Shown piece by piece: positions 7,396 to 57,305 of a DNA stretch of 64,000 nt. Every line of letters starts with the position of its first letter. Position 1 is the first letter of the stretch. Source of the stretch: Parietaria judaica (Eukaryota > Streptophyta > Magnoliopsida > Rosales > Urticaceae); assembly GCA_954871525.1 (NCBI GenBank), contig OX940872.1, forward strand, positions 9,013,180-9,077,179. Direction: 5' to 3'. The notes beneath the pieces were generated by a model, which worked only from the letters and a program-made list of their open reading frames with translations, did no database searches and was not told the DNA's origin. The translations under genes were made by a program, and so were the position numbers.

Positions 7396-7579
7396 GGAAA
7401 GAAGGAAGCCACAATAAATCAAGCAAATGAAAATATACAAGTGAAGTGATAGATCACACATTTTATCAAACTATACAATATAAATCATAGAAAGTCAACT
7501 TCTTTGAAACATGTGCACTCTTATAACCACCATTTTATAAGCTTTTTCATGCACTGACAACTATAGTAGAATATAAATG

Positions 7580-8238
7580 TAGGGGTGTACAAAACCCTAA
7601 ACCGAATCTAAAATCGATAGCATTTATTTACCGATTTTTTTCACTACCGAAAATTTATGCTTTTTTTAAAATAGCAGAAAATGTGGCATAAATCTCTACC
7701 GTTTTTTGCGAAATGGTAGCGGTTACGGTTTTCACTGTAAAAACCGCTACCGGTTACCGATTAACCTAATAATAAACTAGTATACATTTAAAAATAGATA
7801 AATCTAAGACTTTTAGCATTTAATATATATAACAATATTTTTGCATGAATTTTGTCATTCATTAATTCATTCAATCTTATTTTATTTAGAACAGTTTTTG
7901 TTGTTATTGCAATTATTTCTTCTCGTTTGAATAAAAATGAATAAATGCCGTGAGAGAATTGACTCCATTTGATCTATTTCATCGATTGATTCGTTTTTTA
8001 TACTTTAGATTATGTAGTACTGATTTAACTTATCAAATATATGATGATTATATTGTGTTTTGTAAAAATGTGGTTAAAACCGAATTTAAACCGAATCTAA
8101 AACCGATATATCGGTAATTGGTAAAATTGGTTTTAAACTTAAATAGCGCGGCTTTCGGTTGTAAAATAGAAAAACCAAAAATGCGGTAATCTATATAAAT
8201 AGCTATGAAAACCGAACAGAAGACTCTTGTTCCCCCTA
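7580..8238. mobile_element. Non-autonomous hAT-type element, TAGGGGTG family, copy 1
   Basis: A 659-bp element starting TAGGGGTGTACAAAACCC and ending in the inverted ...CCCCTA. It is flanked by a perfect 8-bp target duplication tataaatg (7572-7579 and 8239-8246). The interior is AT-rich with repeated blocks resembling aaaccgaa and ggtagcggttacggt. No coding capacity was seen. The second copy at 13083 matches over its whole length. Confidence 0.88.
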
Positions 8239-32956: not shown

Positions 32957-34135
32957 CTATGTCGCCTTTCGGTTCACTTTCATGTATGGAAGACAACTGA
33001 TCACATTGTCGTAGTCGCTTCGGTGGACGATTTGCTGCAGGAAACAAAGAACAAAATGTAATTAAGATAATGAGATTACGAGGCTGAAAAGTAAAGTAAA
33101 ATATCGAGAGAGAGAAAAATGCAAAAATAAGAAAGCCTATTTGAAACTAGCAAGCTTTAACTACATAGTTACAGTTCATGCTTGAATGACGAAGAATTAC
33201 ATTTCTTAATTTACCCATTGATATTTTGATTCTTGATATCATCGAGGACGCAAAGGATCGGTTTTTGAAAACAAAGGACATCGATTACCACCATCCAAAT
33301 ACAAATTTTCAAAAAAAAATTCATGAAGCATAAAATAGTTTCCAACTTATTAGCAGCTGAAAAAATGGATATTTATAACAAAACATGGATGCGAGAACCC
33401 GACATTTCCTACTTCAACGGAATAAGCCGATCGATTATGCCAAACGGATTCATCAACATTTCGTAATTACGAAATCACAAAGAAAAGCATAATTCTTTGA
33501 GAGCAATCATATCATAGAAGATTGAAAAACCCCACCATTTTGGAGAGCCTCAACTTCCTCTTCTTGTTCTTCTTGTACAGCAGATGCTGCTTTCCGGCTC
33601 CTCTCCGAACTATTTTCCCTCTGCCCGTAACCCTGAACCGCTTCGCCGAAGCCTATCACCGAAGAAAACGACACCGTTTTTGCGAATTTAGACGCTTAAC
33701 ACAATGCATCATCCATCCACAATTCAACCAGAATATCGATTCACACACTTCAAATCCATTTCAGAATCTACAGAAAACCTCAAACACTCTAATTCACGAA
33801 CCATGAGCCAATTATCCAATCTTCACACAATTGAATTCCAATTCAAAATTCCAAGGAAAGAGGAAAATCACCTTGTGCGTCTTCATCTTGTAGCCTTTGT
33901 GCGCGACAATGCTGAGAGAGCGAGGATCGCCGGAGCTCGGAGCGGTCGCCAACGGCTTCCGAGGGAGCTGAGCCGAGGCGAAGCCGGAGATGGCGTGCGC
34001 CGAGCTGAGCTTCAGCGAGGCGGCCTTGCCGAGCGGAGCGAGTCGGACCGAGGCGCGAGCGAGCTGAGCAGCGCGAGGGCGAAATGGGAAGTGGGTGAGG
34101 CCAAAGGAGACCGACATGGCGGCAGAAGAAGCCAT
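32957..34135 (-). CDS. RPL35: Plastid 50S ribosomal protein bL35c
   Basis: Nuclear-encoded subunit of the chloroplast large ribosomal subunit. Three exons: 34135-33872, 33652-33536 and 33034-32957 (stop TAG), with GT/AG borders and all exons a multiple of three, giving 152 aa. Residues 1 to about 75 form a Ser/Ala/Arg-rich chloroplast transit peptide ([18 protein letters not shown]). The mature domain has the L35 signature KGYKMKTHK, then [38 protein letters not shown] and [21 protein letters not shown]. Length and motifs fit the family. Its promoter lies between 34136 and the left edge of the NUP43-tail array about 245 bp upstream, so the array directly abuts its upstream region. No defect seen. 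Confidence 0.95.
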
Positions 34136-34262: not shown

Positions 34263-34378
34263 CAATGTAATAAAAGAGCTTTTTACTTGAGGCCTCAATC
34301 TTTTCTTTTATTTACGCCTGTGTCCCAGTGATAACTGACTGACAGTTAAAGTGTAAGTTTAAAAACCAATAGTCGTAT

Positions 34379-34562
34379 GCAAGGTTTTAAATACCGCTTG
34401 TCGACGTAGTTTCGCACTTTTCATTTTACGGATATATCGCTTGTCGATTGATACCTCATAGGTAAATCGATGGATATGCCGATAAATATATCGTTTCGCA
34501 TATCTTCGAAAAAAATTCTCGATGGGCATGCCGATGGATATTCGAGAAATTTAATACCTTGG
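34379..34562. mobile_element. Short inverted-repeat element (MITE-like) at the unit edge
   Basis: About 184 bp bounded by gcaaggttttaaatac and the inverted atttaataccttgg, rich in atcg/cgat blocks (ccgcttgtcgac, atatcgcttgtcgattga). A copy starts every array unit, and a diverged inverted fragment lies at 57088-57166. Target duplication is unclear. Confidence 0.6.
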
Positions 34563-36346
34563 TTACACGGGATTATCGGATTTTTTATTGATTAATCCAT
34601 AAAATGTACAAAAATTATCAACACCATAAATATAAATCATTTAAAACTAAAAATTATTTGATCATTTTGGATTTTTCTAATAAAATATAAAAAAAATTAG
34701 GGAACAGGACACGTTGGTGCGTCAAGAGACCTTAGGCAAGAATGTCCTCTTTTCCCGTATCTTTTTTCTAGTTTGTGTGGCAGGCTTCTTCGCCCTCATT
34801 CGAGGTGAAGAGAAAAAATTTATAAAAATTATTAGATTTTTATATGGGATTATCAGATATTTTTATTGATTACATGTATTACAAAAATTATCAACAATAT
34901 ATATATATATATATATATATCATTTATAACTATTAACTAAAACGAATTTGATCATTTTGGATTTTTGGATTTTTCCAATAAAAGATTAAAAAAAAAAAGG
35001 TTTTGTGAAAGAAATGAAAAAAAGAGAACAATTTATTTGACAGAAACTTGTTTAATGTGATTAAATTTTATTTTTTAAAATAAACTTGGTTTATGGAAAT
35101 CACTGAATCTTCGTTGATATGCTAAATTTTTCTTTTGCAGACAAGAATATAATGTGCTACAAATATAAGAATAAGGGGGGAAATGAGCAATGAGAAGAAA
35201 AGCTGTCCCTTTTGTGCAAATTCCAAAGTGTAGTGAATAATATTGAAATCAGCTTCAAGAAATTGCACAACATGGCTCATCTTTGCATGAATAAGTTTCA
35301 TAATTAGAGAAAAAATAACACTATCATGAAGAAATTAAGTCAGAAAAATGATAAAAAAATAAAAATAAAAATAAATAAACAGCAAAGGATCAAAATAAAA
35401 TTACTTATAACTGAGCATTTTGTGCTCAACTTGAGTTACATTTCACAGCTAAAACAACAGCAAAAAGATTAGCCGGATTCGGAGTTGAACAGTGAGTTCC
35501 TCCGGTTAAACACTACGACCGTGTCAAGATCGCAATGGATTCCCACTCCAAACTGCAAATCACGTCCTACACAGCGTAACAGTTCGGAGACGTGAGAACA
35601 ATCACTCGAGAAGATACCAAAGGCACAAAATTATATGAGATTTTACTAGCAGAAAGGTGATATTGGGTGTTCAGGATAAATACTTACAGATGGGTTTTGT
35701 CGATCAATGTCGAAACTGTTGATTGCGCACGGTTCAGCCATGAGTTCGACCGGTTCCTCTCCTACACAGTTGGGCATATTCGTAATTCCACGTTTGTCGA
35801 GCCTTTTACTCATTTAGACAGTAAAGTGTAAAAAATATACAAGAAACAAAGTAAAGTGTAAAAATAAGAGTAATTATTACTTATCGGCATGCCCCCTGAA
35901 CTTGCAGCGCTGTTGTTATTTTGCCGGTTAATTTTTTTATATAGCAGTTTCCCCATATACTTAAGCAATTACCCTCTCGACGTTTAATATAATCGATAAT
36001 TTCCGTGAAAATTAACGATGAGCGTAAATGCATATGCTAGTATATTATGATGATTTTTATTCTCTAAATATTACTATGTCCACTGCACGTTGAATTTTGA
36101 TGACAAGTTCATCAGACAAACTGGTAAAAAAATTACGGGCATTATTTAATATTAAAATGCATAAGTTTCTAAATTATACCTATTTGTTCATTTATAAAAA
36201 TTACAAGGGATTTATAAACAATATAAAAATATATAATAAAAAAACCTATGGGAAACCAAGGCCATTGTTGGATGGCTATGACTTCGTCATTAAGAAAGTT
36301 AATGGTAAAAAATTCAGACATTAGAGGATTGCATCGAGCAGCAACG
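34381..36346 (-). repeat. Array unit 1 (leftmost), NUP43 terminal exons
   Basis: 1966 bp. Exon 4 copy 35761-35688, exon 5 copy 35566-35513, both intact with splice sites. Edge unit with private variants at its start (ataccgcttgtcgacgtag; other units have atatcgcttgccgatgtag), the longest AT run, and the 9-bp ggattttt(t)g duplication. Variants: cataaaatg, gatcatttt, gctgtccc, ctctcg. Confidence 0.95.
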
Positions 36347-38309
36347 AAGGTTTTAAATATCGCTTGCCGATGTAGTTTCGCACTTTTTATTTTACGGATA
36401 TATCGCTTGTCGATTGATATCTCATAGGTAAATCGATGGTTATGCCGATAAATATATCGTTTCGCATATCCTCGAAAAAAAATTCTCGATGGGCATGCCA
36501 ATGAATATTCGAGAAATTTAATACCTTGGTCACACGGGATTATCGGATTTTTTATTGATTAATCCTTAAAATGTACAAAAATTATCAACACCATAAATAT
36601 AAATCATTTAAAACTAAAAATTATTTGATAATTTTGGATTTTTCTAATAAAATATAAAAAAAAATAGGGAACAGGACACGTTGGTGCGTCAAGAGACCTT
36701 AGGCAAGAATGTCCTCTTTTCCCGTATCTTTTTTCTAGTTTGTGTGGCAGGCTTCTTCGCCCTCATTCGAGGTGAAGAGAAAAAATTTATAAAAATTATT
36801 AGATTTTTATATGGGATTATCAGATATTTTTATTGATTACATGTATTACAAAAATTATCAACAATATATATATATATATATATCATTTATAACTATTAAC
36901 TAAAACGAATTTGATCATTTTGGATTTTTGGATTTTTCCAATAAAAGATTAAAAAAAAAAAGGTTTTGTGAAAGAAATGAAAAAAAGAGAACAATTTATT
37001 TGACAGAAACTTGTTTAATGTGATTAAATTTTATTTTTTAAAATAAACTTGGTTTATGGAAATCACTGAATCTTCGTTGATATGCTAAATTTTTCTTTTG
37101 CAGACAAGAATATAATGTGCTACAAATATAAGAATAAGGGGGGAAATGAGCAATGAGAAGAAAAGCTGTCCCTTTTGTGCAAATTCCAAAGTGTAGTGAA
37201 TAATATTGAAATCAGCTTCAAGAAATTGCACAACATGGCTCATCTTTGCATGAATAAGTTTCATAATTAGAGAAAAAATAACACTATCATGAAGAAATTA
37301 AGTCAGAAAAATGATAAAAAAATAAAAATAAAAATAAATAAACAGCAAAGGATCAAAATAAAATTACTTATAACTGAGCATTTTGTGCTCAACTTGAGTT
37401 ACATTTCACAGCTAAAACAACAGCAAAAAGATTAGCCGGATTCGGAGTTGAACAGTGAGTTCCTCCGGTTAAACACTACGACCGTGTCAAGATCGCAATG
37501 GATTCCCACTCCAAACTGCAAATCACGTCCTACACAGCGTAACAGTTCGGAGACGTGAGAACAATCACTCGAGAAGATACCAAAGGCACAAAATTATATG
37601 AGATTTTACTAGCAGAAAGGTGATATTGGGTGTTCAGGATAAATACTTACAGATGGGTTTTGTCGATCAATGTCGAAACTGTTGATTGCGCACGGTTCAG
37701 CCATGAGTTCGACCGGTTCCTCTCCTACACAGTTGGGCATATTCGTAATTCCACGTTTGTCGAGCCTTTTACTCATTTAGACAGTAAAGTGTAAAAAATA
37801 TACAAGAAACAAAGTAAAGTGTAAAAATAAGAGTAATTATTACTTATCGGCATGCCCCCTGAACTTGCAGCGCTGTTGTTATTTTGCCGGTTAATTTTTT
37901 TATATAGCAGTTTCCCCATATACTTAAGCAATTACCCTCTCGACGTTTAATATAATCGATAATTTCCGTGAAAATTAACGATGAGCGTAAATGCATATGC
38001 TAGTATATTATGATGATTTTTATTCTCTAAATATTACTATGTCCACTGCACGTTGAATTTTGATGACAAGTTCATCAGACAAACTGGTAAAAAAATTACG
38101 GGCATTATTTAATATTAAAATGCATAAGTTTCTAAATTATACCTATTTGTTCATTTATAAAAATTACAAGGGATTTATAAACAATATAAAAATATATAAT
38201 AAAAAAACCTATGGGAAACCAAGGCCATTGTTGGATGGCTATGACTTCGTCATTAAGAAAGTTAATGGTAAAAAATTCAGACATTAGAGGATTGCATCGA
38301 GCAGCAACG
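36347..38309 (-). repeat. Array unit 2
   Basis: 1963 bp. Exon 4 copy 37724-37651, exon 5 copy 37529-37476, intact. Private gatggttatg near 36440. Variants: cttaaaatg, gataatttt, 9-bp duplication present, gctgtccc, ctctcg. Confidence 0.95.
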
Positions 38310-40260
38310 AAGGTTTTAAATATCGCTTGCCGATGTAGTTTCGCACTTTTTATTTTACGGATATATCGCTTGTCGATTGATATCTCATAGGTAAATCGAT
38401 GGATATGCCGATAAATATATCGTTTCGCATATCCTCGAAAAAAAATTCTCGATGGGCATGCCGATGAATATTCGAGAAATTTAATACCTTGGTCACACGG
38501 GATTATCGGATTTTTTATTGATTAATCCATAAAATGTACAAAAATTATCAACACCATAAATATAAATCATTTAAAACTAAAAATTATTTGATCATTTTGG
38601 ATTTTTCTAATAAAATATAAAAAAAATTAGGGAACAGGACACGTTGGTGCGTCAAGAGACCTTAGGCAAGAATGTCCTCTTTTCCCGTATCTTTTTTCTA
38701 GTTTGTGTGGCAGGCTTCTTCGCCCTCATTCGAGGTGAAGAGAAAAAATTTATAAAAATTATTAGATTTTTATATGGGATTATCAGATATTTTTATTGAT
38801 TACATGTATTACAAAAATTATCAACAATATATATATATATATCATTTATAACTATTAACTAAAACGAATTTGATCATTTTGGATTTTTCCAATAAAAGAT
38901 TAAAAAAAAAAAGGTTTTGTGAAAGAAATGAAAAAAAGAGAACAATTTATTTGACAGAAACTTGTTTAATGTGATTAAATTTTATTTTTTAAAATAAACT
39001 TGGTTTATGGAAATCACTGAATCTTCGTTGATATGCTAAATTTTTCTTTTGCAGACAAGAATATAATGTGCTACAAATATAAGAATAAGGGGGGAAATGA
39101 GCAATGAGAAGAAAAGGTGTCCCTTTTGTGCAAATTCCAAAGTGTAGTGAATAATATTGAAATCAGCTTCAAGAAATTGCACAACATGGCTCATCTTTGC
39201 ATGAATAAGTTTCATAATTAGAGAAAAAATAACACTATCATGAAGAAATTAAGTCAGAAAAATGATAAAAAAATAAAAATAAAAATAAATAAACAGCAAA
39301 GGATCAAAATAAAATTACTTATAACTGAGCATTTTGTGCTCAACTTGAGTTACATTTCACAGCTAAAACAACAGCAAAAAGATTAGCCGGATTCGGAGTT
39401 GAACAGTGAGTTCCTCCGGTTAAACACTACGACCGTGTCAAGATCGCAATGGATTCCCACTCCAAACTGCAAATCACGTCCTACACAGCGTAACAGTTCG
39501 GAGACGTGAGAACAATCACTCGAGAAGATACCAAAGGCACAAAATTATATGAGATTTTACTAGCAGAAAGGTGATATTGGGTGTTCAGGATAAATACTTA
39601 CAGATGGGTTTTGTCGATCAATGTCGAAACTGTTGATTGCGCACGGTTCAGCCATGAGTTCGACCGGTTCCTCTCCTACACAGTTGGGCATATTCGTAAT
39701 TCCACGTTTGTCGAGCCTTTTACTCATTTAGACAGTAAAGTGTAAAAAATATACAAGAAACAAAGTAAAGTGTAAAAATAAGAGTAATTATTACTTATCG
39801 GCATGCCCCCTGAACTTGCAGCGCTGTTGTTATTTTGCCGGTTAATTTTTTTATATAGCAGTTTCCCCATATACTTAAGCAATTACCCTCTCGACGTTTA
39901 ATATAATCGATAATTTCCGTGAAAATTAACGATGAGCGTAAATGCATATGCTAGTATATTATGATGATTTTTATTCTCTAAATATTACTATGTCCACTGC
40001 ACGTTGAATTTTGATGACAAGTTCATCAGACAAACTGGTAAAAAAATTACGGGCATTATTTAATATTAAAATGCATAAGTTTCTAAATTATACCTATTTG
40101 TTCATTTATAAAAATTACAAGGGATTTATAAACAATATAAAAATATATAATAAAAAAACCTATGGGAAACCAAGGCCATTGTTGGATGGCTATGACTTCG
40201 TCATTAAGAAAGTTAATGGTAAAAAATTCAGACATTAGAGGATTGCATCGAGCAGCAACG
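38310..40260 (-). repeat. Array unit 3
   Basis: 1951 bp. Exon 4 copy 39675-39602, exon 5 copy 39480-39427, intact. Variants: cataaaatg, gatcatttt, no 9-bp duplication, ggtgtccc, ctctcg. I see no difference from units 4-6. Confidence 0.95.
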
Positions 40261-42211
40261 AAGGTTTTAAATATCGCTTGCCGATGTAGTTTCGCACTTT
40301 TTATTTTACGGATATATCGCTTGTCGATTGATATCTCATAGGTAAATCGATGGATATGCCGATAAATATATCGTTTCGCATATCCTCGAAAAAAAATTCT
40401 CGATGGGCATGCCGATGAATATTCGAGAAATTTAATACCTTGGTCACACGGGATTATCGGATTTTTTATTGATTAATCCATAAAATGTACAAAAATTATC
40501 AACACCATAAATATAAATCATTTAAAACTAAAAATTATTTGATCATTTTGGATTTTTCTAATAAAATATAAAAAAAATTAGGGAACAGGACACGTTGGTG
40601 CGTCAAGAGACCTTAGGCAAGAATGTCCTCTTTTCCCGTATCTTTTTTCTAGTTTGTGTGGCAGGCTTCTTCGCCCTCATTCGAGGTGAAGAGAAAAAAT
40701 TTATAAAAATTATTAGATTTTTATATGGGATTATCAGATATTTTTATTGATTACATGTATTACAAAAATTATCAACAATATATATATATATATCATTTAT
40801 AACTATTAACTAAAACGAATTTGATCATTTTGGATTTTTCCAATAAAAGATTAAAAAAAAAAAGGTTTTGTGAAAGAAATGAAAAAAAGAGAACAATTTA
40901 TTTGACAGAAACTTGTTTAATGTGATTAAATTTTATTTTTTAAAATAAACTTGGTTTATGGAAATCACTGAATCTTCGTTGATATGCTAAATTTTTCTTT
41001 TGCAGACAAGAATATAATGTGCTACAAATATAAGAATAAGGGGGGAAATGAGCAATGAGAAGAAAAGGTGTCCCTTTTGTGCAAATTCCAAAGTGTAGTG
41101 AATAATATTGAAATCAGCTTCAAGAAATTGCACAACATGGCTCATCTTTGCATGAATAAGTTTCATAATTAGAGAAAAAATAACACTATCATGAAGAAAT
41201 TAAGTCAGAAAAATGATAAAAAAATAAAAATAAAAATAAATAAACAGCAAAGGATCAAAATAAAATTACTTATAACTGAGCATTTTGTGCTCAACTTGAG
41301 TTACATTTCACAGCTAAAACAACAGCAAAAAGATTAGCCGGATTCGGAGTTGAACAGTGAGTTCCTCCGGTTAAACACTACGACCGTGTCAAGATCGCAA
41401 TGGATTCCCACTCCAAACTGCAAATCACGTCCTACACAGCGTAACAGTTCGGAGACGTGAGAACAATCACTCGAGAAGATACCAAAGGCACAAAATTATA
41501 TGAGATTTTACTAGCAGAAAGGTGATATTGGGTGTTCAGGATAAATACTTACAGATGGGTTTTGTCGATCAATGTCGAAACTGTTGATTGCGCACGGTTC
41601 AGCCATGAGTTCGACCGGTTCCTCTCCTACACAGTTGGGCATATTCGTAATTCCACGTTTGTCGAGCCTTTTACTCATTTAGACAGTAAAGTGTAAAAAA
41701 TATACAAGAAACAAAGTAAAGTGTAAAAATAAGAGTAATTATTACTTATCGGCATGCCCCCTGAACTTGCAGCGCTGTTGTTATTTTGCCGGTTAATTTT
41801 TTTATATAGCAGTTTCCCCATATACTTAAGCAATTACCCTCTCGACGTTTAATATAATCGATAATTTCCGTGAAAATTAACGATGAGCGTAAATGCATAT
41901 GCTAGTATATTATGATGATTTTTATTCTCTAAATATTACTATGTCCACTGCACGTTGAATTTTGATGACAAGTTCATCAGACAAACTGGTAAAAAAATTA
42001 CGGGCATTATTTAATATTAAAATGCATAAGTTTCTAAATTATACCTATTTGTTCATTTATAAAAATTACAAGGGATTTATAAACAATATAAAAATATATA
42101 ATAAAAAAACCTATGGGAAACCAAGGCCATTGTTGGATGGCTATGACTTCGTCATTAAGAAAGTTAATGGTAAAAAATTCAGACATTAGAGGATTGCATC
42201 GAGCAGCAACG
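40261..42211 (-). repeat. Array unit 4
   Basis: 1951 bp. Exon 4 copy 41626-41553, exon 5 copy 41431-41378, intact. Same variant set as unit 3. Confidence 0.95.
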
Positions 42212-44162
42212 AAGGTTTTAAATATCGCTTGCCGATGTAGTTTCGCACTTTTTATTTTACGGATATATCGCTTGTCGATTGATATCTCATAGGTAAATCG
42301 ATGGATATGCCGATAAATATATCGTTTCGCATATCCTCGAAAAAAAATTCTCGATGGGCATGCCGATGAATATTCGAGAAATTTAATACCTTGGTCACAC
42401 GGGATTATCGGATTTTTTATTGATTAATCCATAAAATGTACAAAAATTATCAACACCATAAATATAAATCATTTAAAACTAAAAATTATTTGATCATTTT
42501 GGATTTTTCTAATAAAATATAAAAAAAATTAGGGAACAGGACACGTTGGTGCGTCAAGAGACCTTAGGCAAGAATGTCCTCTTTTCCCGTATCTTTTTTC
42601 TAGTTTGTGTGGCAGGCTTCTTCGCCCTCATTCGAGGTGAAGAGAAAAAATTTATAAAAATTATTAGATTTTTATATGGGATTATCAGATATTTTTATTG
42701 ATTACATGTATTACAAAAATTATCAACAATATATATATATATATCATTTATAACTATTAACTAAAACGAATTTGATCATTTTGGATTTTTCCAATAAAAG
42801 ATTAAAAAAAAAAAGGTTTTGTGAAAGAAATGAAAAAAAGAGAACAATTTATTTGACAGAAACTTGTTTAATGTGATTAAATTTTATTTTTTAAAATAAA
42901 CTTGGTTTATGGAAATCACTGAATCTTCGTTGATATGCTAAATTTTTCTTTTGCAGACAAGAATATAATGTGCTACAAATATAAGAATAAGGGGGGAAAT
43001 GAGCAATGAGAAGAAAAGGTGTCCCTTTTGTGCAAATTCCAAAGTGTAGTGAATAATATTGAAATCAGCTTCAAGAAATTGCACAACATGGCTCATCTTT
43101 GCATGAATAAGTTTCATAATTAGAGAAAAAATAACACTATCATGAAGAAATTAAGTCAGAAAAATGATAAAAAAATAAAAATAAAAATAAATAAACAGCA
43201 AAGGATCAAAATAAAATTACTTATAACTGAGCATTTTGTGCTCAACTTGAGTTACATTTCACAGCTAAAACAACAGCAAAAAGATTAGCCGGATTCGGAG
43301 TTGAACAGTGAGTTCCTCCGGTTAAACACTACGACCGTGTCAAGATCGCAATGGATTCCCACTCCAAACTGCAAATCACGTCCTACACAGCGTAACAGTT
43401 CGGAGACGTGAGAACAATCACTCGAGAAGATACCAAAGGCACAAAATTATATGAGATTTTACTAGCAGAAAGGTGATATTGGGTGTTCAGGATAAATACT
43501 TACAGATGGGTTTTGTCGATCAATGTCGAAACTGTTGATTGCGCACGGTTCAGCCATGAGTTCGACCGGTTCCTCTCCTACACAGTTGGGCATATTCGTA
43601 ATTCCACGTTTGTCGAGCCTTTTACTCATTTAGACAGTAAAGTGTAAAAAATATACAAGAAACAAAGTAAAGTGTAAAAATAAGAGTAATTATTACTTAT
43701 CGGCATGCCCCCTGAACTTGCAGCGCTGTTGTTATTTTGCCGGTTAATTTTTTTATATAGCAGTTTCCCCATATACTTAAGCAATTACCCTCTCGACGTT
43801 TAATATAATCGATAATTTCCGTGAAAATTAACGATGAGCGTAAATGCATATGCTAGTATATTATGATGATTTTTATTCTCTAAATATTACTATGTCCACT
43901 GCACGTTGAATTTTGATGACAAGTTCATCAGACAAACTGGTAAAAAAATTACGGGCATTATTTAATATTAAAATGCATAAGTTTCTAAATTATACCTATT
44001 TGTTCATTTATAAAAATTACAAGGGATTTATAAACAATATAAAAATATATAATAAAAAAACCTATGGGAAACCAAGGCCATTGTTGGATGGCTATGACTT
44101 CGTCATTAAGAAAGTTAATGGTAAAAAATTCAGACATTAGAGGATTGCATCGAGCAGCAACG
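42212..44162 (-). repeat. Array unit 5
   Basis: 1951 bp. Exon 4 copy 43577-43504, exon 5 copy 43382-43329, intact. Same variant set as unit 3. Confidence 0.95.
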
Positions 44163-46113
44163 AAGGTTTTAAATATCGCTTGCCGATGTAGTTTCGCACT
44201 TTTTATTTTACGGATATATCGCTTGTCGATTGATATCTCATAGGTAAATCGATGGATATGCCGATAAATATATCGTTTCGCATATCCTCGAAAAAAAATT
44301 CTCGATGGGCATGCCGATGAATATTCGAGAAATTTAATACCTTGGTCACACGGGATTATCGGATTTTTTATTGATTAATCCATAAAATGTACAAAAATTA
44401 TCAACACCATAAATATAAATCATTTAAAACTAAAAATTATTTGATCATTTTGGATTTTTCTAATAAAATATAAAAAAAATTAGGGAACAGGACACGTTGG
44501 TGCGTCAAGAGACCTTAGGCAAGAATGTCCTCTTTTCCCGTATCTTTTTTCTAGTTTGTGTGGCAGGCTTCTTCGCCCTCATTCGAGGTGAAGAGAAAAA
44601 ATTTATAAAAATTATTAGATTTTTATATGGGATTATCAGATATTTTTATTGATTACATGTATTACAAAAATTATCAACAATATATATATATATATCATTT
44701 ATAACTATTAACTAAAACGAATTTGATCATTTTGGATTTTTCCAATAAAAGATTAAAAAAAAAAAGGTTTTGTGAAAGAAATGAAAAAAAGAGAACAATT
44801 TATTTGACAGAAACTTGTTTAATGTGATTAAATTTTATTTTTTAAAATAAACTTGGTTTATGGAAATCACTGAATCTTCGTTGATATGCTAAATTTTTCT
44901 TTTGCAGACAAGAATATAATGTGCTACAAATATAAGAATAAGGGGGGAAATGAGCAATGAGAAGAAAAGGTGTCCCTTTTGTGCAAATTCCAAAGTGTAG
45001 TGAATAATATTGAAATCAGCTTCAAGAAATTGCACAACATGGCTCATCTTTGCATGAATAAGTTTCATAATTAGAGAAAAAATAACACTATCATGAAGAA
45101 ATTAAGTCAGAAAAATGATAAAAAAATAAAAATAAAAATAAATAAACAGCAAAGGATCAAAATAAAATTACTTATAACTGAGCATTTTGTGCTCAACTTG
45201 AGTTACATTTCACAGCTAAAACAACAGCAAAAAGATTAGCCGGATTCGGAGTTGAACAGTGAGTTCCTCCGGTTAAACACTACGACCGTGTCAAGATCGC
45301 AATGGATTCCCACTCCAAACTGCAAATCACGTCCTACACAGCGTAACAGTTCGGAGACGTGAGAACAATCACTCGAGAAGATACCAAAGGCACAAAATTA
45401 TATGAGATTTTACTAGCAGAAAGGTGATATTGGGTGTTCAGGATAAATACTTACAGATGGGTTTTGTCGATCAATGTCGAAACTGTTGATTGCGCACGGT
45501 TCAGCCATGAGTTCGACCGGTTCCTCTCCTACACAGTTGGGCATATTCGTAATTCCACGTTTGTCGAGCCTTTTACTCATTTAGACAGTAAAGTGTAAAA
45601 AATATACAAGAAACAAAGTAAAGTGTAAAAATAAGAGTAATTATTACTTATCGGCATGCCCCCTGAACTTGCAGCGCTGTTGTTATTTTGCCGGTTAATT
45701 TTTTTATATAGCAGTTTCCCCATATACTTAAGCAATTACCCTCTCGACGTTTAATATAATCGATAATTTCCGTGAAAATTAACGATGAGCGTAAATGCAT
45801 ATGCTAGTATATTATGATGATTTTTATTCTCTAAATATTACTATGTCCACTGCACGTTGAATTTTGATGACAAGTTCATCAGACAAACTGGTAAAAAAAT
45901 TACGGGCATTATTTAATATTAAAATGCATAAGTTTCTAAATTATACCTATTTGTTCATTTATAAAAATTACAAGGGATTTATAAACAATATAAAAATATA
46001 TAATAAAAAAACCTATGGGAAACCAAGGCCATTGTTGGATGGCTATGACTTCGTCATTAAGAAAGTTAATGGTAAAAAATTCAGACATTAGAGGATTGCA
46101 TCGAGCAGCAACG
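44163..46113 (-). repeat. Array unit 6
   Basis: 1951 bp. Exon 4 copy 45528-45455, exon 5 copy 45333-45280, intact. Same variant set as unit 3. Confidence 0.95.
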
Positions 46114-48073
46114 AAGGTTTTAAATATCGCTTGCCGATGTAGTTTCGCACTTTTTATTTTACGGATATATCGCTTGTCGATTGATATCTCATAGGTAAAT
46201 CGATGGATATGCCGATAAATATATCGTTTCGCATATCCTCGAAAAAAAATTCTCGATGGGCATGCCGATGAATATTCGAGAAATTTAATACCTTGGTCAC
46301 ACGGGATTATCGGATTTTTTATTGATTAATCCTTAAAATGTACAAAAATTATCAACACCATAAATATAAATCATTTAAAACTAAAAATTATTTGATAATT
46401 TTGGATTTTTCTAATAAAATATAAAAAAAAATAGGGAACAGGACACGTTGGTGCGTCAAGAGACCTTAGGCAAGAATGTCCTCTTTTCCCGTATCTTTTT
46501 TCTAGTTTGTGTGGCAGGCTTCTTCGCCCTCATTCGAGGTGAAGAGAAAAAATTTATAAAAATTATTAGATTTTTATATGGGATTATCAGATATTTTTAT
46601 TGATTACATGTATTACAAAAATTATCAACAATATATATATATATATATATCATTTATAACTATTAACTAAAACGAATTTGATCATTTTGGATTTTTGGAT
46701 TTTTCCAATAAAAGATTAAAAAAAAAGGTTTTGTGAAAGAAATGAAAAAAGAGAACAATTTATTTGACAGAAACTTGTTTAATGTGATTAAATTTTATTT
46801 TTTAAAATAAACTTGGTTTATGGAAATCACTGAATCTTCGTTGATATGCTAAATTTTTCTTTTGCAGACAAGAATATAATGTGCTACAAATATAAGAATA
46901 AGGGGGGAAATGAGCAATGAGAAGAAAAGGTGTCCCTTTTGTGCAAATTCCAAAGTGTAGTGAATAATATTGAAATCAGCTTCAAGAAATTGCACAACAT
47001 GGCTCATCTTTGCATGAATAAGTTTCATAATTAGAGAAAAAATAACACTATCATGAAGAAATTAAGTCAGAAAAATGATAAAAAAATAAAAATAAAAATA
47101 AATAAACAGCAAAGGATCAAAATAAAATTACTTATAACTGAGCATTTTGTGCTCAACTTGAGTTACATTTCACAGCTAAAACAACAGCAAAAAGATTAGC
47201 CGGATTCGGAGTTGAACAGTGAGTTCCTCCGGTTAAACACTACGACCGTGTCAAGATCGCAATGGATTCCCACTCCAAACTGCAAATCACGTCCTACACA
47301 GCGTAACAGTTCGGAGACGTGAGAACAATCACTCGAGAAGATACCAAAGGCACAAAATTATATGAGATTTTACTAGCAGAAAGGTGATATTGGGTGTTCA
47401 GGATAAATACTTACAGATGGGTTTTGTCGATCAATGTCGAAACTGTTGATTGCGCACGGTTCAGCCATGAGTTCGACCGGTTCCTCTCCTACACAGTTGG
47501 GCATATTCGTAATTCCACGTTTGTCGAGCCTTTTACTCATTTAGACAGTAAAGTGTAAAAAATATACAAGAAACAAAGTAAAGTGTAAAAATAAGAGTAA
47601 TTATTACTTATCGGCATGCCCCCTGAACTTGCAGCGCTGTTGTTATTTTTCCGGTTAATTTTTTTATATAGCAGTTTCCCCATATACTTAAGCAATTACC
47701 CTATCGACGTTTAATATAATCGATAATTTCCGTGAAAATTAACGATGAGCGTAAATGCATATGCTAGTATATTATGATGATTTTTATTCTCTAAATATTA
47801 CTATGTCCACTGCACGTTGAATTTTGATGACAAGTTCATCAGACAAACTGGTAAAAAAATTACGGGCATTATTTAATATTAAAATGCATAAGTTTCTAAA
47901 TTATACCTATTTGTTCATTTATAAAAATTACAAGGGATTTATAAACAATATAAAAATATATAATAAAAAAACCTATGGGAAACCAAGGCCATTGTTGGAT
48001 GGCTATGACTTCGTCATTAAGAAAGTTAATGGTAAAAAATTCAGACATTAGAGGATTGCATCGAGCAGCAACG
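46114..48073 (-). repeat. Array unit 7
   Basis: 1960 bp. Exon 4 copy 47488-47415, exon 5 copy 47293-47240, intact. Variants: cttaaaatg, gataatttt, 9-bp duplication present, shorter A-runs, ggtgtccc, ctatcg, plus a private tttttccgg near 47650. Confidence 0.95.
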
Positions 48074-50024
48074 AAGGTTTTAAATATCGCTTGCCGATGT
48101 AGTTTCGCACTTTTTATTTTACGGATATATCGCTTGTCGATTGATATCTCATAGGTAAATCGATGGATATGCCGATAAATATATCGTTTCGCATATCCTC
48201 GAAAAAAAATTCTCGATGGGCATGCCGATGAATATTCGAGAAATTTAATACCTTGGTCACACGGGATTATCGGATTTTTTATTGATTAATCCATAAAATG
48301 TACAAAAATTATCAACACCATAAATATAAATCATTTAAAACTAAAAATTATTTGATCATTTTGGATTTTTCTAATAAAATATAAAAAAAATTAGGGAACA
48401 GGACACGTTGGTGCGTCAAGAGACCTTAGGCAAGAATGTCCTCTTTTCCCGTATCTTTTTTCTAGTTTGTGTGGCAGGCTTCTTCGCCCTCATTCGAGGT
48501 GAAGAGAAAAAATTTATAAAAATTATTAGATTTTTATATGGGATTATCAGATATTTTTATTGATTACATGTATTACAAAAATTATCAACAATATATATAT
48601 ATATATCATTTATAACTATTAACTAAAACGAATTTGATCATTTTGGATTTTTCCAATAAAAGATTAAAAAAAAAAAGGTTTTGTGAAAGAAATGAAAAAA
48701 AGAGAACAATTTATTTGACAGAAACTTGTTTAATGTGATTAAATTTTATTTTTTAAAATAAACTTGGTTTATGGAAATCACTGAATCTTCGTTGATATGC
48801 TAAATTTTTCTTTTGCAGACAAGAATATAATGTGCTACAAATATAAGAATAAGGGGGGAAATGAGCAATGAGAAGAAAAGCTGTCCCTTTTGTGCAAATT
48901 CCAAAGTGTAGTGAATAATATTGAAATCAGCTTCAAGAAATTGCACAACATGGCTCATCTTTGCATGAATAAGTTTCATAATTAGAGAAAAAATAACACT
49001 ATCATGAAGAAATTAAGTCAGAAAAATGATAAAAAAATAAAAATAAAAATAAATAAACAGCAAAGGATCAAAATAAAATTACTTATAACTGAGCATTTTG
49101 TGCTCAACTTGAGTTACATTTCACAGCTAAAACAACAGCAAAAAGATTAGCCGGATTCGGAGTTGAACAGTGAGTTCCTCCGGTTAAACACTACGACCGT
49201 GTCAAGATCGCAATGGATTCCCACTCCAAACTGCAAATCACGTCCTACACAGCGTAACAGTTCGGAGACGTGAGAACAATCACTCGAGAAGATACCAAAG
49301 GCACAAAATTATATGAGATTTTACTAGCAGAAAGGTGATATTGGGTGTTCAGGATAAATACTTACAGATGGGTTTTGTCGATCAATGTCGAAACTGTTGA
49401 TTGCGCACGGTTCAGCCATGAGTTCGACCGGTTCCTCTCCTACACAGTTGGGCATATTCGTAATTCCACGTTTGTCGAGCCTTTTACTCATTTAGACAGT
49501 AAAGTGTAAAAAATATACAAGAAACAAAGTAAAGTGTAAAAATAAGAGTAATTATTACTTATCGGCATGCCCCCTGAACTTGCAGCGCTGTTGTTATTTT
49601 GCCGGTTAATTTTTTTATATAGCAGTTTCCCCATATACTTAAGCAATTACCCTCTCGACGTTTAATATAATCGATAATTTCCGTGAAAATTAACGATGAG
49701 CGTAAATGCATATGCTAGTATATTATGATGATTTTTATTCTCTAAATATTACTATGTCCACTGCACGTTGAATTTTGATGACAAGTTCATCAGACAAACT
49801 GGTAAAAAAATTACGGGCATTATTTAATATTAAAATGCATAAGTTTCTAAATTATACCTATTTGTTCATTTATAAAAATTACAAGGGATTTATAAACAAT
49901 ATAAAAATATATAATAAAAAAACCTATGGGAAACCAAGGCCATTGTTGGATGGCTATGACTTCGTCATTAAGAAAGTTAATGGTAAAAAATTCAGACATT
50001 AGAGGATTGCATCGAGCAGCAACG
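48074..50024 (-). repeat. Array unit 8
   Basis: 1951 bp. Exon 4 copy 49439-49366, exon 5 copy 49244-49191, intact. Variants: cataaaatg, gatcatttt, no 9-bp duplication, gctgtccc, ctctcg. This is the unit-3 type with the unit-1 base at one site. Confidence 0.95.
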
Positions 50025-51984
50025 AAGGTTTTAAATATCGCTTGCCGATGTAGTTTCGCACTTTTTATTTTACGGATATATCGCTTGTCGATTGATATCT
50101 CATAGGTAAATCGATGGATATGCCGATAAATATATCGTTTCGCATATCCTCGAAAAAAAATTCTCGATGGGCATGCCGATGAATATTCGAGAAATTTAAT
50201 ACCTTGGTCACACGGGATTATCGGATTTTTTATTGATTAATCCTTAAAATGTACAAAAATTATCAACACCATAAATATAAATCATTTAAAACTAAAAATT
50301 ATTTGATAATTTTGGATTTTTCTAATAAAATATAAAAAAAAATAGGGAACAGGACACGTTGGTGCGTCAAGAGACCTTAGGCAAGAATGTCCTCTTTTCC
50401 CGTATCTTTTTTCTAGTTTGTGTGGCAGGCTTCTTCGCCCTCATTCGAGGTGAAGAGAAAAAATTTATAAAAATTATTAGATTTTTATATGGGATTATCA
50501 GATATTTTTATTGATTACATGTATTACAAAAATTATCAACAATATATATATATATATATATCATTTATAACTATTAACTAAAACGAATTTGATCATTTTG
50601 GATTTTTGGATTTTTCCAATAAAAGATTAAAAAAAAAGGTTTTGTGAAAGAAATGAAAAAAGAGAACAATTTATTTGACAGAAACTTGTTTAATGTGATT
50701 AAATTTTATTTTTTAAAATAAACTTGGTTTATGGAAATCACTGAATCTTCGTTGATATGCTAAATTTTTCTTTTGCAGACAAGAATATAATGTGCTACAA
50801 ATATAAGAATAAGGGGGGAAATGAGCAATGAGAAGAAAAGGTGTCCCTTTTGTGCAAATTCCAAAGTGTAGTGAATAATATTGAAATCAGCTTCAAGAAA
50901 TTGCACAACATGGCTCATCTTTGCATGAATAAGTTTCATAATTAGAGAAAAAATAACACTATCATGAAGAAATTAAGTCAGAAAAATGATAAAAAAATAA
51001 AAATAAAAATAAATAAACAGCAAAGGATCAAAATAAAATTACTTATAACTGAGCATTTTGTGCTCAACTTGAGTTACATTTCACAGCTAAAACAACAGCA
51101 AAAAGATTAGCCGGATTCGGAGTTGAACAGTGAGTTCCTCCGGTTAAACACTACGACCGTGTCAAGATCGCAATGGATTCCCACTCCAAACTGCAAATCA
51201 CGTCCTACACAGCGTAACAGTTCGGAGACGTGAGAACAATCACTCGAGAAGATACCAAAGGCACAAAATTATATGAGATTTTACTAGCAGAAAGGTGATA
51301 TTGGGTGTTCAGGATAAATACTTACAGATGGGTTTTGTCGATCAATGTCGAAACTGTTGATTGCGCACGGTTCAGCCATGAGTTCGACCGGTTCCTCTCC
51401 TACACAGTTGGGCATATTCGTAATTCCACGTTTGTCGAGCCTTTTACTCATTTAGACAGTAAAGTGTAAAAAATATACAAGAAACAAAGTAAAGTGTAAA
51501 AATAAGAGTAATTATTACTTATCGGCATGCCCCCTGAACTTGCAGCGCTGTTGTTATTTTGCCGGTTAATTTTTTTATATAGCAGTTTCCCCATATACTT
51601 AAGCAATTACCCTATCGACGTTTAATATAATCGATAATTTCCGTGAAAATTAACGATGAGCGTAAATGCATATGCTAGTATATTATGATGATTTTTATTC
51701 TCTAAATATTACTATGTCCACTGCACGTTGAATTTTGATGACAAGTTCATCAGACAAACTGGTAAAAAAATTACGGGCATTATTTAATATTAAAATGCAT
51801 AAGTTTCTAAATTATACCTATTTGTTCATTTATAAAAATTACAAGGGATTTATAAACAATATAAAAATATATAATAAAAAAACCTATGGGAAACCAAGGC
51901 CATTGTTGGATGGCTATGACTTCGTCATTAAGAAAGTTAATGGTAAAAAATTCAGACATTAGAGGATTGCATCGAGCAGCAACG
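50025..51984 (-). repeat. Array unit 9
   Basis: 1960 bp. Exon 4 copy 51399-51326, exon 5 copy 51204-51151, intact. Variants as unit 7 (cttaaaatg, gataatttt, 9-bp duplication, ggtgtccc, ctatcg) without its private base. Confidence 0.95.
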
Positions 51985-53935
51985 ATGGTTTTAAATATCG
52001 CTTGCCGATGTAGTTTCGCACTTTTTATTTTACGGATATATAACTTGTCGATTGATATCTCATAGGTAAATCGATGGATATGCCGATAAATATATCGTTT
52101 CGCATATCCTCGAAAAAAAATTTCTCGATGGGCATGCCGATGAATATTCGAGAAATTTAATTCCTTGGTCACACGGGATTATCGGATTTTTTATTGATTA
52201 ATCCATAAAATGTACAGAAATTATCAACACCATAAATATAAATCATTTAAAACTAAAAATTATTTGATAATTTTGGATTTTTCTAATAAAATATAAAAAA
52301 AATTAGGGAACAGGACACGTTGGTGCGTCAAGAGACCTTAGGCAAGAATGTCCTCTTTTCCCGTATCTTTTTTCTAGTTTGTGTGGCAGGCTTCTTCGCC
52401 CTCATTCGAGGTGAAGAGAAAAAATTTATAAAAATTATTAGATTTTTATATGGGATTATCAGATATTTTTATTGATTACATGTATTACAAAAATTATCAA
52501 CAATATATATATATATATCATTTATAACTATTAACTAAAACGAATTTGATCATTTTGGATTTTTCCAATAAAAGATTAAAAAAAAAAGGTTTTGTGAAAG
52601 AAATGAAAAAAAGAGAACAATTTATTTGACAGAAACTTGTTTAATGTGATTAAATTTTATTTTTTAAAATAAACTTGGTTTATGGAAATCACTGAATCTT
52701 CGTTGATATGCTAAATTTTTCTTTTGCAGACAAGAATATAATGTGCTACAAATATAAGAATAAGGGGGGAAATGAGCAATGAGAAGAAAAGCTGTCCCTT
52801 TTGTGCAAATTCCAAAGTGTAGTGAATAATATTGAAATCAGCTTCAAGAAATTGCACAACATGGCTCATCTTTGCATGAATAAGTTTCATAATTAGAGAA
52901 AAAATAACACTATCATGAAGAAATTAAGTCAGAAAAATGATAAAAAAATAAAAATAAAAATAAATAAACAGCAAAGGATCAAAATAAAATTACTTATAAC
53001 TGAGCATTTTGTGCTCAACTTGAGTTACATTTCACAGCTAAAACAACAGCAAAAAGATTAGCCGGATTCGGAGTTGAACAGTGAGTTCCTCCGGTTAAAC
53101 ACTACGACCGTGTCAAGATCGCAATGGATTCCCACTCCAAACTGCAAATCACGTCCTACACAGCGTAACAGTTCGGAGACGTGAGAACAATCACTCGAGA
53201 AGATACCAAAGGCACAAAATTATATGAGATTTTACTAGCAGAAAGGTGATATTGGGTGTTCAGGATAAATACTTACAGATGGGTTTTGTCGATCAATGTC
53301 GAAACTGTTGATTGCGCACGGTTCAGCCATGAGTTCGACCGGTTCCTCTCCTACACAGTTGGGCATATTCGTAATTCCACGTTTGTCGAGCCTTTTACTC
53401 ATTTAGACAGTAAAGTGTAAAAAATATACAAGAAACAAAGTAAAGTGTAAAAATAAGAGTAATTATTACTTATCGGCATGCCCCCTGAACTTGCAGCGCT
53501 GTTGTTATTTTGCCGGTTAATTTTTTTATATAGCAGTTTCCCCATATACTTAAGCAATTACCCTATCGACGTTTAATATAATCGATAATTTCCGTGAAAA
53601 TTAACGATGAGCGTAAATGCATATGCTAGTATATTATGATGATTTTTATTCTCTAAATATTACTATGTCCACTGCACGTTGAATTTTGATGACAAGTTCA
53701 TCAGACAAACTGGTAAAAAAATTACGGGCATTATTTAATATTAAAATGCATAAGTTTCTAAATTATACCTATTTGTTCATTTATAAAAATTACAAGGGAT
53801 TTATAAACAATATAAAAATATATAATAAAAAAACCTATGGGAAACCAAGGCCATTGTTGGATGGCTATGACTTCGTCATTAAGAAAGTTAATGGTAAAAA
53901 ATTCAGACATTAGAGGAATGCATCGAGCAGCAACG
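51985..53935 (-). repeat. Array unit 10 (rightmost), used by NUP43 itself
   Basis: 1951 bp. Contains exon 4 (53350-53277) and exon 5 (53155-53102) that complete the intact gene. Private variants cluster in its left, MITE-like part (acgatgg, tataacttg, ttaattcc, gtacagaaa). Variants: cataaaatg, gataatttt, no 9-bp duplication, gctgtccc, ctatcg. Confidence 0.95.
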
Positions 53936-55928
53936 AAATACCTTGTTCAACGAGAGCGAGGATACCGTCTTCGGCACAAATCATGGCGGGTAATATTTTT
54001 GACGACGACATGTTTCCTACGTTTGAAGTCTTTGCACGGCGGTCGTACTGAACTTCCCAAACCTCACTCTCTGATGGGGACTGGGGCCCATTTTCGCCCG
54101 CCCCAACACCAGAAAGAATGATTGGCTGCTTCGGCCACCTCAGATCCCATCCAAATACTCTGCCTAAGGACCCTCCTGCCTACCACAAGTGAGGGCAGTT
54201 TAGCCTTATTTAAATGTTAATATGTGTCATTTAACACATTGCAAATCTGTTAGACCTATAAATAGGAGATACTTAAATAAATATCTAATTATATTTGCCT
54301 AAAATATATCTATTTCTATCATTATTATGTCATGGCCGTATTAGCGGTATTTTACAATAAATGTGCGACTAGGGTTTCAAATCCTGTACATAGGCGCCTA
54401 ATATAAGCTAGTTGTCGTGTTAAGTTCGTGAAATTTTGAATTGAACATCATTTGGTAGAGTTAATCCCGGTCTAATATTTACGTTAATCAATAAAGAGCT
54501 GTTGTTTCTCCTGGATTTCGATGATAGGCCCTAAACTTGTATAAAGATAAAAGAAAAAAATAAAAAATAAAAAATCTTAATGCTATGTTGGATACGTTTA
54601 TAACGTCTAAGCTAAGCCTCGGACTACTTTGATCTCGCGACAACTCTAATGCTCAAGCGTTTCTAGCAGAAAAACAACAGATACAAGAATAATCCGGGAA
54701 AATATAAACATAGAGAAAACACAAGGAACGATGACACGAAGATCATATTGAAAACGGAAGCATGATGATTTCTTATCTGCGTAGACTTGAAATACAACGA
54801 GCACACTTACCAGACAGGTATGTTTTCGCGATGGATGAATATCGATAGAATGCACGATCCCGGAAGTTCGACGTTGATCCCTGTCCATTTTCACCACACA
54901 AACTTATAGCAGAGGAAAACCTCAGAAAGTGGAAAAATGGTTTCAACTTTACAATGGTGATCAACAAGTAACAATTACGTGATTTTTGTGTTATTCTGTC
55001 TTAAATTTCCTTCATTTTTCTCTTCGGATAAACCACGATTTCGACTTTCAAGGTTCGATCTTATAGAACTGACACGAACACCAAACACAAACACAAACAC
55101 CAACACCAACACGAAAAACGAACACAAAGAAAGCAATCAAACTCAAAGCGACAGTATGATATGATGATATACTCATGAATTATAATGATCAAACTCAGAA
55201 GAAATTCGACTTGTTTCCCAAATCATTTCAAATAATTTAGCGCCATAAAATCAAAATGCCCGAAAAATTCTCACTCACCAGCTAGCCTTGAACTGCGAAA
55301 CCGGCCCATTTGCGCCGGGATTCCTCAAATCCCACCACTGGAGCCCGAACCCGAGCCCGCCAGTAGCGAATTCGCTCGGAGAGGCCCACTTCGCCGCAGT
55401 GAACGCCGCCACGCCGCTCCCGTCGAAGAACCTCCGACAATCCACCGCCGCGTCCCAAACCTTCACCAGGTTCACCCTCCCGTCCTCGCCGACGGTGACG
55501 ACCTCGGTCCCGCCTCCCTCCGCCACGTCAGCAGCGGCGATCGCGCCGGCGTGCAAAGCCCCTGCCTCCACCGCCGCGGCTTCCTCGAGCGCCGCCGCGT
55601 CCGGCGAGACGAGGACGACGTGGAGCGATCCCCCGGCGGTGCCCGCGACGAGGAAGGGCCGGCCGTTGGCGGAGGCGGACGATCGGAGGGAGGTGACCCG
55701 CGAGGGGACGGGGAAGGAGGAGAGAGGGTTCAGGGTTAGGGTTTGGGTTCGGGATTCGGAAGTGAGAGAGTGGATTCTGAGGGAGTCGGAGCCGGCGTCG
55801 GAGTCGTGGAAGGCGACGGCGACGTGGCGGCGGAGGGCGGAGAGGGGAGGGAGCCACCGGACGGCGTCGACGTAGTGGGGCTGAGGGAAGCGCCGGAGGG
55901 GATCGGAGCTCGGCGAGGTCGACGCCAT
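53102..55928 (-). CDS. NUP43: Nucleoporin NUP43 (WD40 repeat, Y-complex)
   Basis: Component of the outer-ring NUP107-160 (Y) subcomplex of the nuclear pore. Five exons: 55928-55279, 54880-54811, 54179-53942, 53350-53277 and 53155-53102 (stop TAG). All borders are GT/AG, with sum 1086 nt, 361 aa, which as I recall is the length of Arabidopsis At4g30840. The start MASTSPSSDPLRRFPQPHYVD is the only ATG at the exon head. WD40-like segments include EVVTVGEDGRVNLVKVWD, SEFATGGLGFGLQWWDLRNP, TSGIVHSIDIHPSRKHTCLAGGS, VFGWDLRWPKQPIILSG and SEVWEVQYD. The last exons give EEPVELMAEPCAINSFDIDRQNPS and DVICSLEWESIAILTRS. Exon 1 is strikingly GC-rich against its surroundings. Exons 4-5 lie in unit 10 of the tandem array, so the gene's own 3' end is the repeated module. 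Confidence 0.95.
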
Positions 55929-57087
55929 TGATGGGGCTTTGGAGCTTCGCGAGGGTTTTAGCGGGCTGAGCGTGGTGACCGTGCCATTTTGATTACGGTT
56001 CGGAGCGTGGCTCGGACTCTGCCTCGGAACCGAGCCTCCAGCGCTGACTTGGTCGTGGTGTCGTTGACCGAGAAGGTGAAGGAAGGATCATGTTATTATT
56101 GTTTAACCTTATGATAGCTTGAGAATCAATAACGAAGAAGTTTGAAAATGTGATAATTTTGTATACGAATTGTCATGTCAATTCAGAATAAGCTGAACAA
56201 CTTGAATTCAGATTGAGAAAAAACGTGAAAATCTTGTAAGTGAATTATCATATCAAGTTCAGATTGAGAAACATGTGAGAATATTGTAGTCAAATCAATT
56301 ATGAACGAGTTGTGAAACGTGAGAATCTTATAAGTAAACAGTTTAATTAATTTGAAAATGTTTAAGAAGGGTGGGAACCTTTGTGTGTTTGATCAAATTA
56401 AACAAATTACTATAGATGTGCCCACCTTCTCGAATCTCAAGAGCAAAATAAATTTTATTGTCGAATTTACATAAAGGCTTCTAAAAACTCAAAATAGATA
56501 TATACTAACCATTGATCAATGTCGAAACCTTGTTGAAGAAACATACAAAAACAAGAAAAATCAAAGCTTAGAAGTTCTTATAAAAGATCCATCCAATTCT
56601 TATTCAAATTAATTAGAAGAAATACAAAAGCATACACGCACACATTTGACAAATGAAGAACAAATACCAAAGCGATGATAGCTTATACTAAATATATTGT
56701 GAATATGATAGTTTGAACTTTCGATAATTTGAGTTAACAGTTATTAATTTTACTAACAGGTGAGCAATACTACGTCTTGAGCTTTGAAAAAATTATAGCC
56801 GGAGGCCCGGAAGCACTTAAAAGGGTAGGGGACAATAACCCCCAAGTTGAGATAATTTATTTATTTATATTTTTTTGTTAGAATTATGAAAGAAAAAAAA
56901 GTTACAAACTAACTCTACACATCCCGGGAGATTTCTCGACCCCCGTATACACAAATCCTAATTCCGTCAATTGCAGCAGTTCAATGTCACTACTTAAAAT
57001 ACTCAATTTTTCATCATTAAAATAATCAGTGCCAATAAATAATAAAAAACATTATTAAATGAAAAAGATGGAATATTTTTTACTTAT
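55929..57087. other. Intergenic, includes NUP43 promoter side
   Basis: The first ~130 bp are GC-rich and probably carry the NUP43 5' UTR and promoter. The rest is AT-rich without a supported gene. Confidence 0.5.
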
Positions 57088-57166
57088 GATACTAATCGAC
57101 AAACGCTATATCTGTAAAATAAAAAATGCGAAACGATATCGGCAAGCAGTATTTAAAACCTTGCAG
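57088..57166 (-). mobile_element. Inverted fragment of the array-edge MITE-like element
   Basis: The reverse complement (gcaaggttttaaatactgct, then gccgatatcgtttcgca) matches the start of the element at 34379 in opposite orientation. Only the first ~80 bp are recognisable. Confidence 0.65.
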
Positions 57167-57305
57167 TACACTCATGATATATGGATTTACATTTTCGCCC
57201 ACCTTTTTATCAATCATATTTTTGTGCAAAGTGAAGAAGATATGCCCGTAATGTATACGAGTGGCAGATGATAAAAAAGACAAAGAAGAAGAAGAAGATA
57301 GGAAA

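Follow-up and report, generated by a model that had tools for sequence, protein, structure and literature searches.

We identify, in the plant Parietaria judaica, a tenfold tandem multiplication of the 3' end of the nuclear pore gene NUP43 behind a gene body that stays single-copy, and this array is real in the assembly (GCA_954871525.1). It lies in a window of 64,000 nucleotides, i.e. the whole stretch of contig OX940872.1 that was analysed (positions 9,013,180 to 9,077,179, forward strand), and the coordinates below are those of the window. Each unit of the array begins at the outer end of a miniature inverted-repeat transposable element (MITE), which we call E. We consider it fairly probable that a transposon end drove the first duplication and that unequal exchange then enlarged the array. 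Its main features are:

34383..53937: head-to-tail array of ten units, from unit alignment and a search for exons and splice sites
34383, 36349, 38312, 40263, 42214, 44165, 46116, 48076, 50027 and 51987: starts of units 1 to 10
38312..46115: units 3 to 6, four identical units of 1951 bp

Six units are 1951 bp long, two 1960 bp, one 1963 bp and one 1966 bp, for a total of about 19.5 kb of near-alike repeats, so that a chance origin of the observation is not an issue. Read on the plus strand, a unit comprises E (about 182 bp), the NUP43 3' flank, exon 5, intron 4, exon 4, and most of intron 3. Exon 4 (74 nt), exon 5 (54 nt) and their splice sites are base-identical in all ten units, always on the minus strand. 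The original prediction, made from the letters alone, had placed ten copies of these two exons, with these sizes, this strand and a spacing of about 1951 bp, at 34381-53935, and our analysis bears this out, including the array edges, which agree within about 2 bp. It had overlooked the MITE at the start of every unit and the small share of the unit taken by the exons (128 of about 1951 bases). Hence, its description of terminal exons multiplied behind a single body holds in part: the tail is tenfold in the assembly, but the exons are passengers in a larger unit bounded by a MITE, and the body is single-copy within the window, but an intact homeolog exists on another contig, C8.

The gene itself was reconstructed as follows:

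55279..55928, minus strand: NUP43 exon 1, from the gene reconstruction
54811..54880, minus strand: NUP43 exon 2, from the gene reconstruction
53942..54179, minus strand: NUP43 exon 3, single copy, from the gene reconstruction and an exon-end search
53277..53350, minus strand: NUP43 exon 4 of unit 10, linked to the gene body
53102..53155, minus strand: NUP43 exon 5 of unit 10 with the stop, linked to the gene body
35688, 37651, 39602, 41553, 43504, 45455, 47415, 49366 and 51326: starts of the nine further copies of exon 4

Unit 10 completes an unbroken five-exon frame of 361 aa with GT/AG borders. The end of exon 3 (GAACAAG, then GTATTTCG) occurs once in the window on the strand of the gene, in agreement with the earlier claim that only the rightmost pair of exons is joined to exons 1-3. 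The identification as NUP43, also proposed earlier, is supported: in the PDB, the top-ranking sequence is 9sob_Q, 'Nuclear pore complex protein NUP43', which aligns to residues 10-360 of the query with E 9.2e-124, a full-length relation to a solved plant NUP43, and the closest homolog among the best 120 of 333 matches is NUP43 of Morus notabilis, with 70% identity, in line with a plant of the Rosales. Pfam gave no match above cut-off for this protein. The gene probably works. A longer protein made by exon repetition can be ruled out by reasoning, as exon 4 has 74 nt and phase-1/phase-0 borders, and a join of exon 4 to exon 4 shifts the frame. Since the phases bar such an in-frame repeat, splicing of exon 3 to any exon 4 and then to any downstream exon 5 is predicted to yield an identical protein. 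No new protein is expected from the extra exons, and nothing that we saw points to one.

Contig C8 encodes an intact NUP43 (359 aa) followed by bL35c, the gene of plastid ribosomal protein L35, in the same order as in the window. The C8 locus has one set of exons 4 and 5 and no MITE E, which shows that the array is the derived state. Between the two NUP43 copies, synonymous divergence (dS) is 0.067 and nonsynonymous divergence (dN) 0.013, a ratio of 0.20, which suggests constraint on the pair; a single comparison cannot say on which copy. We searched the 539 Mb of the genome with the unit body (1756 bases) and scored all 20 candidate places. The 11 long matches are the ten units and the C8 locus (1481 of 1756 bases, 85%), and the other nine places hold short pieces only. 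This rules out that the array is a dispersed satellite. The count of two NUP43 loci rests on such DNA searches of the genome. Eight of the nine short pieces correspond to a dispersed repeat of about 100 bp inside the NUP43 3' flank of the units (38636-38745 in one of them), which is itself flanked by two copies of about 130 bp, 78% identical, of the 3' flank.

The sites that bear on the origin of the array lie at its two edges:

34372..34379: left target-site copy GTCGTATG of the outermost E, probably half of a decayed target-site duplication (TSD)
34380..34561, plus strand: outermost E (CAAGGTTTTAAAT...ATTTAATACCTTG), identified by the ends of its family and by target duplications of 8 bp
34562..34569: right target-site copy, GTTACACG in unit 1 and GTCACACG in unit 3, with C as third base in units 2-10 (alignment column 184)
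53937..53945, plus strand: AATACCTTG at the border of exon 3 and intron 3, equal to the nine terminal bases of the other end of E and abutting the duplication breakpoint

The E family is 183 bp long, with ends CAAGG...CCTTG (CAAGGTTTTAAAT and CAAGGTATTAAAT); hAT ends read CA(A/G)GG. It is large, with 1761 first-look candidates in the genome, of which 40 were scored. Our sample consists of 23 rows from loci outside the array: 20 fit the family and represent 17 distinct places (three were fetched twice), and the three rows lacking the end pattern were left unscored. The 8-bp flanking duplications are exact in 16 of the 17 places and match at 7 of 8 bases in the remaining one. By its TSD, short inverted ends, small size and copy number, E classifies as a non-autonomous MITE of hAT type. 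Every copy of E in the array carries a base found in none of the 20 family rows (alignment column 29), which argues for a single insertion that was then copied. The same base rules out separate insertions in unit 1 and in units 2-10, which we had considered as their E copies are about 4% apart.

Other elements of this kind were observed. A truncated relic of E lies upstream of NUP43 at 57079-57169 (clear part 57079-57162), about 84-85% identical, with its AAAACCTTG end facing right. A MITE copy on contig C21 (locus L026, position 1493-1500) has the TSD GTCGTATG, the same eight bases as those left of the array; we take this as chance, since the flanks are unrelated beyond these bases and the MITE. 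A hAT element of about 4.39 kb (62878-64000 in the window, 3923-8311 in locus L056) has the TSD CCTGCCAC and ends CAGGGGCGG. Its transposase frame is in several open pieces, one with the Pfam domain Dimer_Tnp_hAT. It belongs to a family other than that of E, and its different ends make the transposase relic at 62878-64000 unlikely as the partner of E.

The junctions are alike across the array. All ten units begin at the outer end of E. In the outermost copy, the initial CAAGG of E directly follows GTCGTATG. The nine inner copies of E lack this terminal C: before units 2-9, the intron 3 sequence GCAACGAA runs directly into GGTTTTAAAT, and before unit 10 the junction reads GCAACGAT. In these inner junctions, an AA can be assigned to either partner. 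On the right of the array, GCAACGAA runs on through ATACCTTG into exon 3, as on C8; there the match to the homeolog is base for base over at least 30 bp, and neither a MITE nor an excision scar is present next to exon 3. The duplication therefore linked E, shortened by one base at its outer end, to the fifth to seventh base of intron 3. The inner nine copies of E have only the right-hand 8-mer, and their left side abuts intron 3. The outermost E has both: GTCGTATG and GTTACACG are identical at 4 of 8 positions and the four differences are all transitions (0.4% of random 8-mer pairs lack transversions in this way), while GTCGTATG and GTCACACG, the right copy of the other units, are identical at 5 of 8 positions with three transitions (0.2% of random pairs). 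The C8 locus, inspected by eye, has 8 bp and no E between the same two flanks, CCAATA and GGATTATC; this has the shape of an empty site, with eight bases unlike both copies in the window.

These observations would be explained by the following course of events, which we regard as having somewhat better than even chances. E would first have entered the short stretch that separates NUP43 from bL35c. One of its outer ends would then have been joined to a site on the sister copy, just inside intron 3 of NUP43, either by aberrant (alternative) transposition or by repair of an end cut by transposase. The product would be a single direct tandem duplication of E, the 3' flank, exons 5 and 4, and intron 3. 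Unequal exchange and conversion between the repeats of 1.95 kb would have brought the array to ten units and kept its inner parts alike. The gene would use the nearest exons 4 and 5, with the nine other pairs behind its stop. We infer the involvement of a transposase, the order of the events and the real copy number. The array has ten elements for ten units and none at the exon 3 side, which speaks for this origin because recombination between two elements should leave 11 (reasoning as in the account of tandem direct duplications in PMC3744419).

The variation among units is in line with the later expansion. Pairs of units differ by at most 15 substitutions, gaps set aside, and the ten units include seven distinct sequences. 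The 3' flank is of one type in units 2, 7, and 9, of another in units 3-6, 8, and mostly 10, and mixed in unit 1, so that types alternate across units 7-9. There are 22 substitution columns, 13 of them within the first 184 of the 1968 alignment columns (P 9e-9), and the eight substitutions found only in unit 1 all fall there (P 6e-9). Unit 10 alone retains the base of C8 near the right edge. The identical units, the interleaved types and the concentration of variation at the edge point to unequal exchange that left out the outer edge. The identity of units 3-6 would allow at most about 55,000 years since a single unit, given a star tree and a rate that we take to be 7e-9 per site per year, but recent conversion or an assembler error would produce the same identity.

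Several points weigh against an origin in a transposon end. The joined end of E lacks its last base, and a join by the 2-bp microhomology (AA) is equally possible; a clean transposase join is not established at the junction. Reversed-ends transposition (RET) calls for a second end of E in reversed orientation. None turned up in the 64-kb window apart from the array, the only region searched; such an end may have been lost. Within this region, the one clear relic (57079-57162) bears the wrong end for RET, and no partner was seen in the 34 kb to the left. Of the 8 bases of the two target-site copies, 3-4 do not match, both copies differ from the C8 site, and the comparison was chosen after the sequences had been seen. 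The one-sided target copy at inner E is expected from any duplication that starts at the end of E. E is more variable than the body even without the columns specific to unit 1, since 5 of the 14 remaining columns fall in the first 184 (9% of the length, P 0.007). Hence, E may mutate faster, in addition to the edge effect, and this would perhaps explain part of it. Finally, the array has ten copies and the published RET cases two. We therefore do not file it as a RET duplication and liken only its first step to one; ten units fit RET only if the expansion came later.

The best-surviving alternative is a plain tandem duplication by end joining or template switching, with 2-bp microhomology and a breakpoint at the end of the MITE by chance or by fragility of its inverted repeat, followed by unequal exchange. 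In its favour are the AA/TT microhomology, the terminal base that the MITE lacks at the junction, and the absence of a second reversed end from the window. However, one breakpoint is within 1-3 bp of the terminus of the MITE, and the other is adjacent to nine bases, AATACCTTG, that repeat its opposite terminus. This motif is also present in the C8 homeolog and is thus ancestral. Such 9-mers (both ends, both strands) occur twice outside the array and the border site, in the E relic near 57155 and at 9242. Relic aside, one in 44 kb gives a chance of about 4 in 10,000 of falling within 9 bp of a given point. We consider this alternative less probable than an origin in a transposon end, but the likeliest of the rivals. 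We know of no mechanism that cleanly uses the AATACCTTG motif. One could imagine that a hAT transposase took the segment from the MITE end through the gene tail to the splice border as a composite transposon by way of this chance motif, and that the array now acts like the repeats of maize b1, setting the epigenetic state of bL35c and NUP43. Such a transposon should leave nine bases at each inner junction, and these are absent, which makes the proposal very improbable.

A further possibility is that two MITEs recombined, the first located in the 3' flank and the second, since lost, in intron 3. In its favour, recombination between non-allelic repeats is presented as the prevailing model for tandem direct duplications (PMC3744419). 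The intact exon 3 side, where the sequence is that of C8, and the single insertion behind all array MITEs speak against it, and we give it little credence. There is also the idea, compatible with any origin, that the array was kept for a use, whether to provide NUP43 with many 3' ends or, through its repeats, to silence or enhance bL35c. The genes on either side of it are both open, the start codon of bL35c lies about 245 bp downstream of the array, and maize b1 has seven repeats of 853 bp about 100 kb upstream, with a paramutation that depends on repeat number in an allelic series (PMC3798267). On the other hand, both genes have homeologs, a recent expansion can be drift, and the activity of b1 transgenes is described as not strictly tied to repeat number (PMC3798267); a function of this kind seems improbable. 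Improbable, too, is an expansion by the assembler of fewer units in the plant: units 3-6 are identical and their count depends on the assembler, but the array has seven distinct unit sequences in interleaved order, and 538.7 Mb in 87 contigs points to long reads, a read type deduced from these figures.

The neighbourhood of the array includes three further features:

32957..34135, minus strand: bL35c, the next gene downstream of NUP43 (Pfam PF01632, E 1.5e-21)
6771-7418, minus strand: open frame with an NB-ARC domain, probably a nucleotide-binding leucine-rich repeat (NLR) gene or relic
19428-20306: open frame with a zf-RVT domain, probably a relic of a long interspersed nuclear element (LINE)

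The frame of bL35c is open over 152 aa, with splice joins picked by script trial. The distance from the stop of NUP43 to the ATG of bL35c is 18,966 bp in the window versus 852 bp on C8. Three gene models among the 120 listed homologs of NUP43 are NUP43-L35 fusions (P0038, P0103, P0117), and the order of the two genes is suggested to be old.

The locus offers a readable record of how a conserved gene may have its tail multiplied by one transposon end and yet remain whole: it can be compared with a single-copy homeolog, its outermost element keeps both flanks, and its ten units are comparable and share one junction. Effects, if any, would fall on RNA ends, on silencing or chromatin state, or on the regulation of bL35c, now 19 kb downstream. 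A ten-unit repeat of 20 kb of otherwise unique sequence between two housekeeping genes is a natural test of whether tandem repeats by themselves draw silencing in plants, and maize b1 is an example that unique tandem repeats can matter (PMC3798267). Such an array is easily missed or mis-annotated as extra exons. We found neither a ten-copy array of 3' exons nor a case in NUP43 in the open-access literature, subscription papers and preprints being outside our scope, and the tenfold 3' version may be new.

The closest known systems each share a part of the structure. In the RET duplications of maize described in PMC3744419, each repeat starts at a hAT element (Ac/fAc, dhAT-Zm1, -Zm13, -Zm24). 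For two of the three genomic cases, 8-bp TSDs are described at both flanks of the first element but at a single flank of the second; of the two elements in the Zm13 case, one has lost 12 bp from its end. The Ac cases start in intron 2 of p1, and the sections on the three genomic cases describe no gene parts. Likewise, the units in Parietaria start at a hAT-type end, with the outermost E flanked on both sides, and the inner ones on one side, by putative target-site copies. The maize cases have exactly two copies; the array in Parietaria has ten, includes the tail of a gene, shows TSDs that have decayed, and lacks one base where E was joined. The duplication of exons 1a and 1b of PEP1 in Arabis alpina, as presented in PMC3527215, also places part of a gene in tandem with the other exons shared and, in accession Paj, an identical protein predicted. 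It concerns the 5' end, with two copies of exon 1 that are both used and have their own start sites, whereas here it is the 3' end, with ten copies and no known use of the extra ones. The hepta-repeat of b1 (PMC3798267) shares with the NUP43 array kilobase tandem repeats of otherwise unique sequence near a gene, but it is distal (about 100 kb) and its regulatory function was tested. MITE-derived satellite DNAs, as reviewed in PMC9659126, also involve a MITE in a tandem array that grows and is kept uniform by unequal exchange; here the MITE makes up about 9% of the unit, the rest is mostly the tail of a host gene, and there are ten units at one locus. The locus combines two known kinds of event, the hAT-initiated tandem duplication and the partial tandem duplication of a gene.

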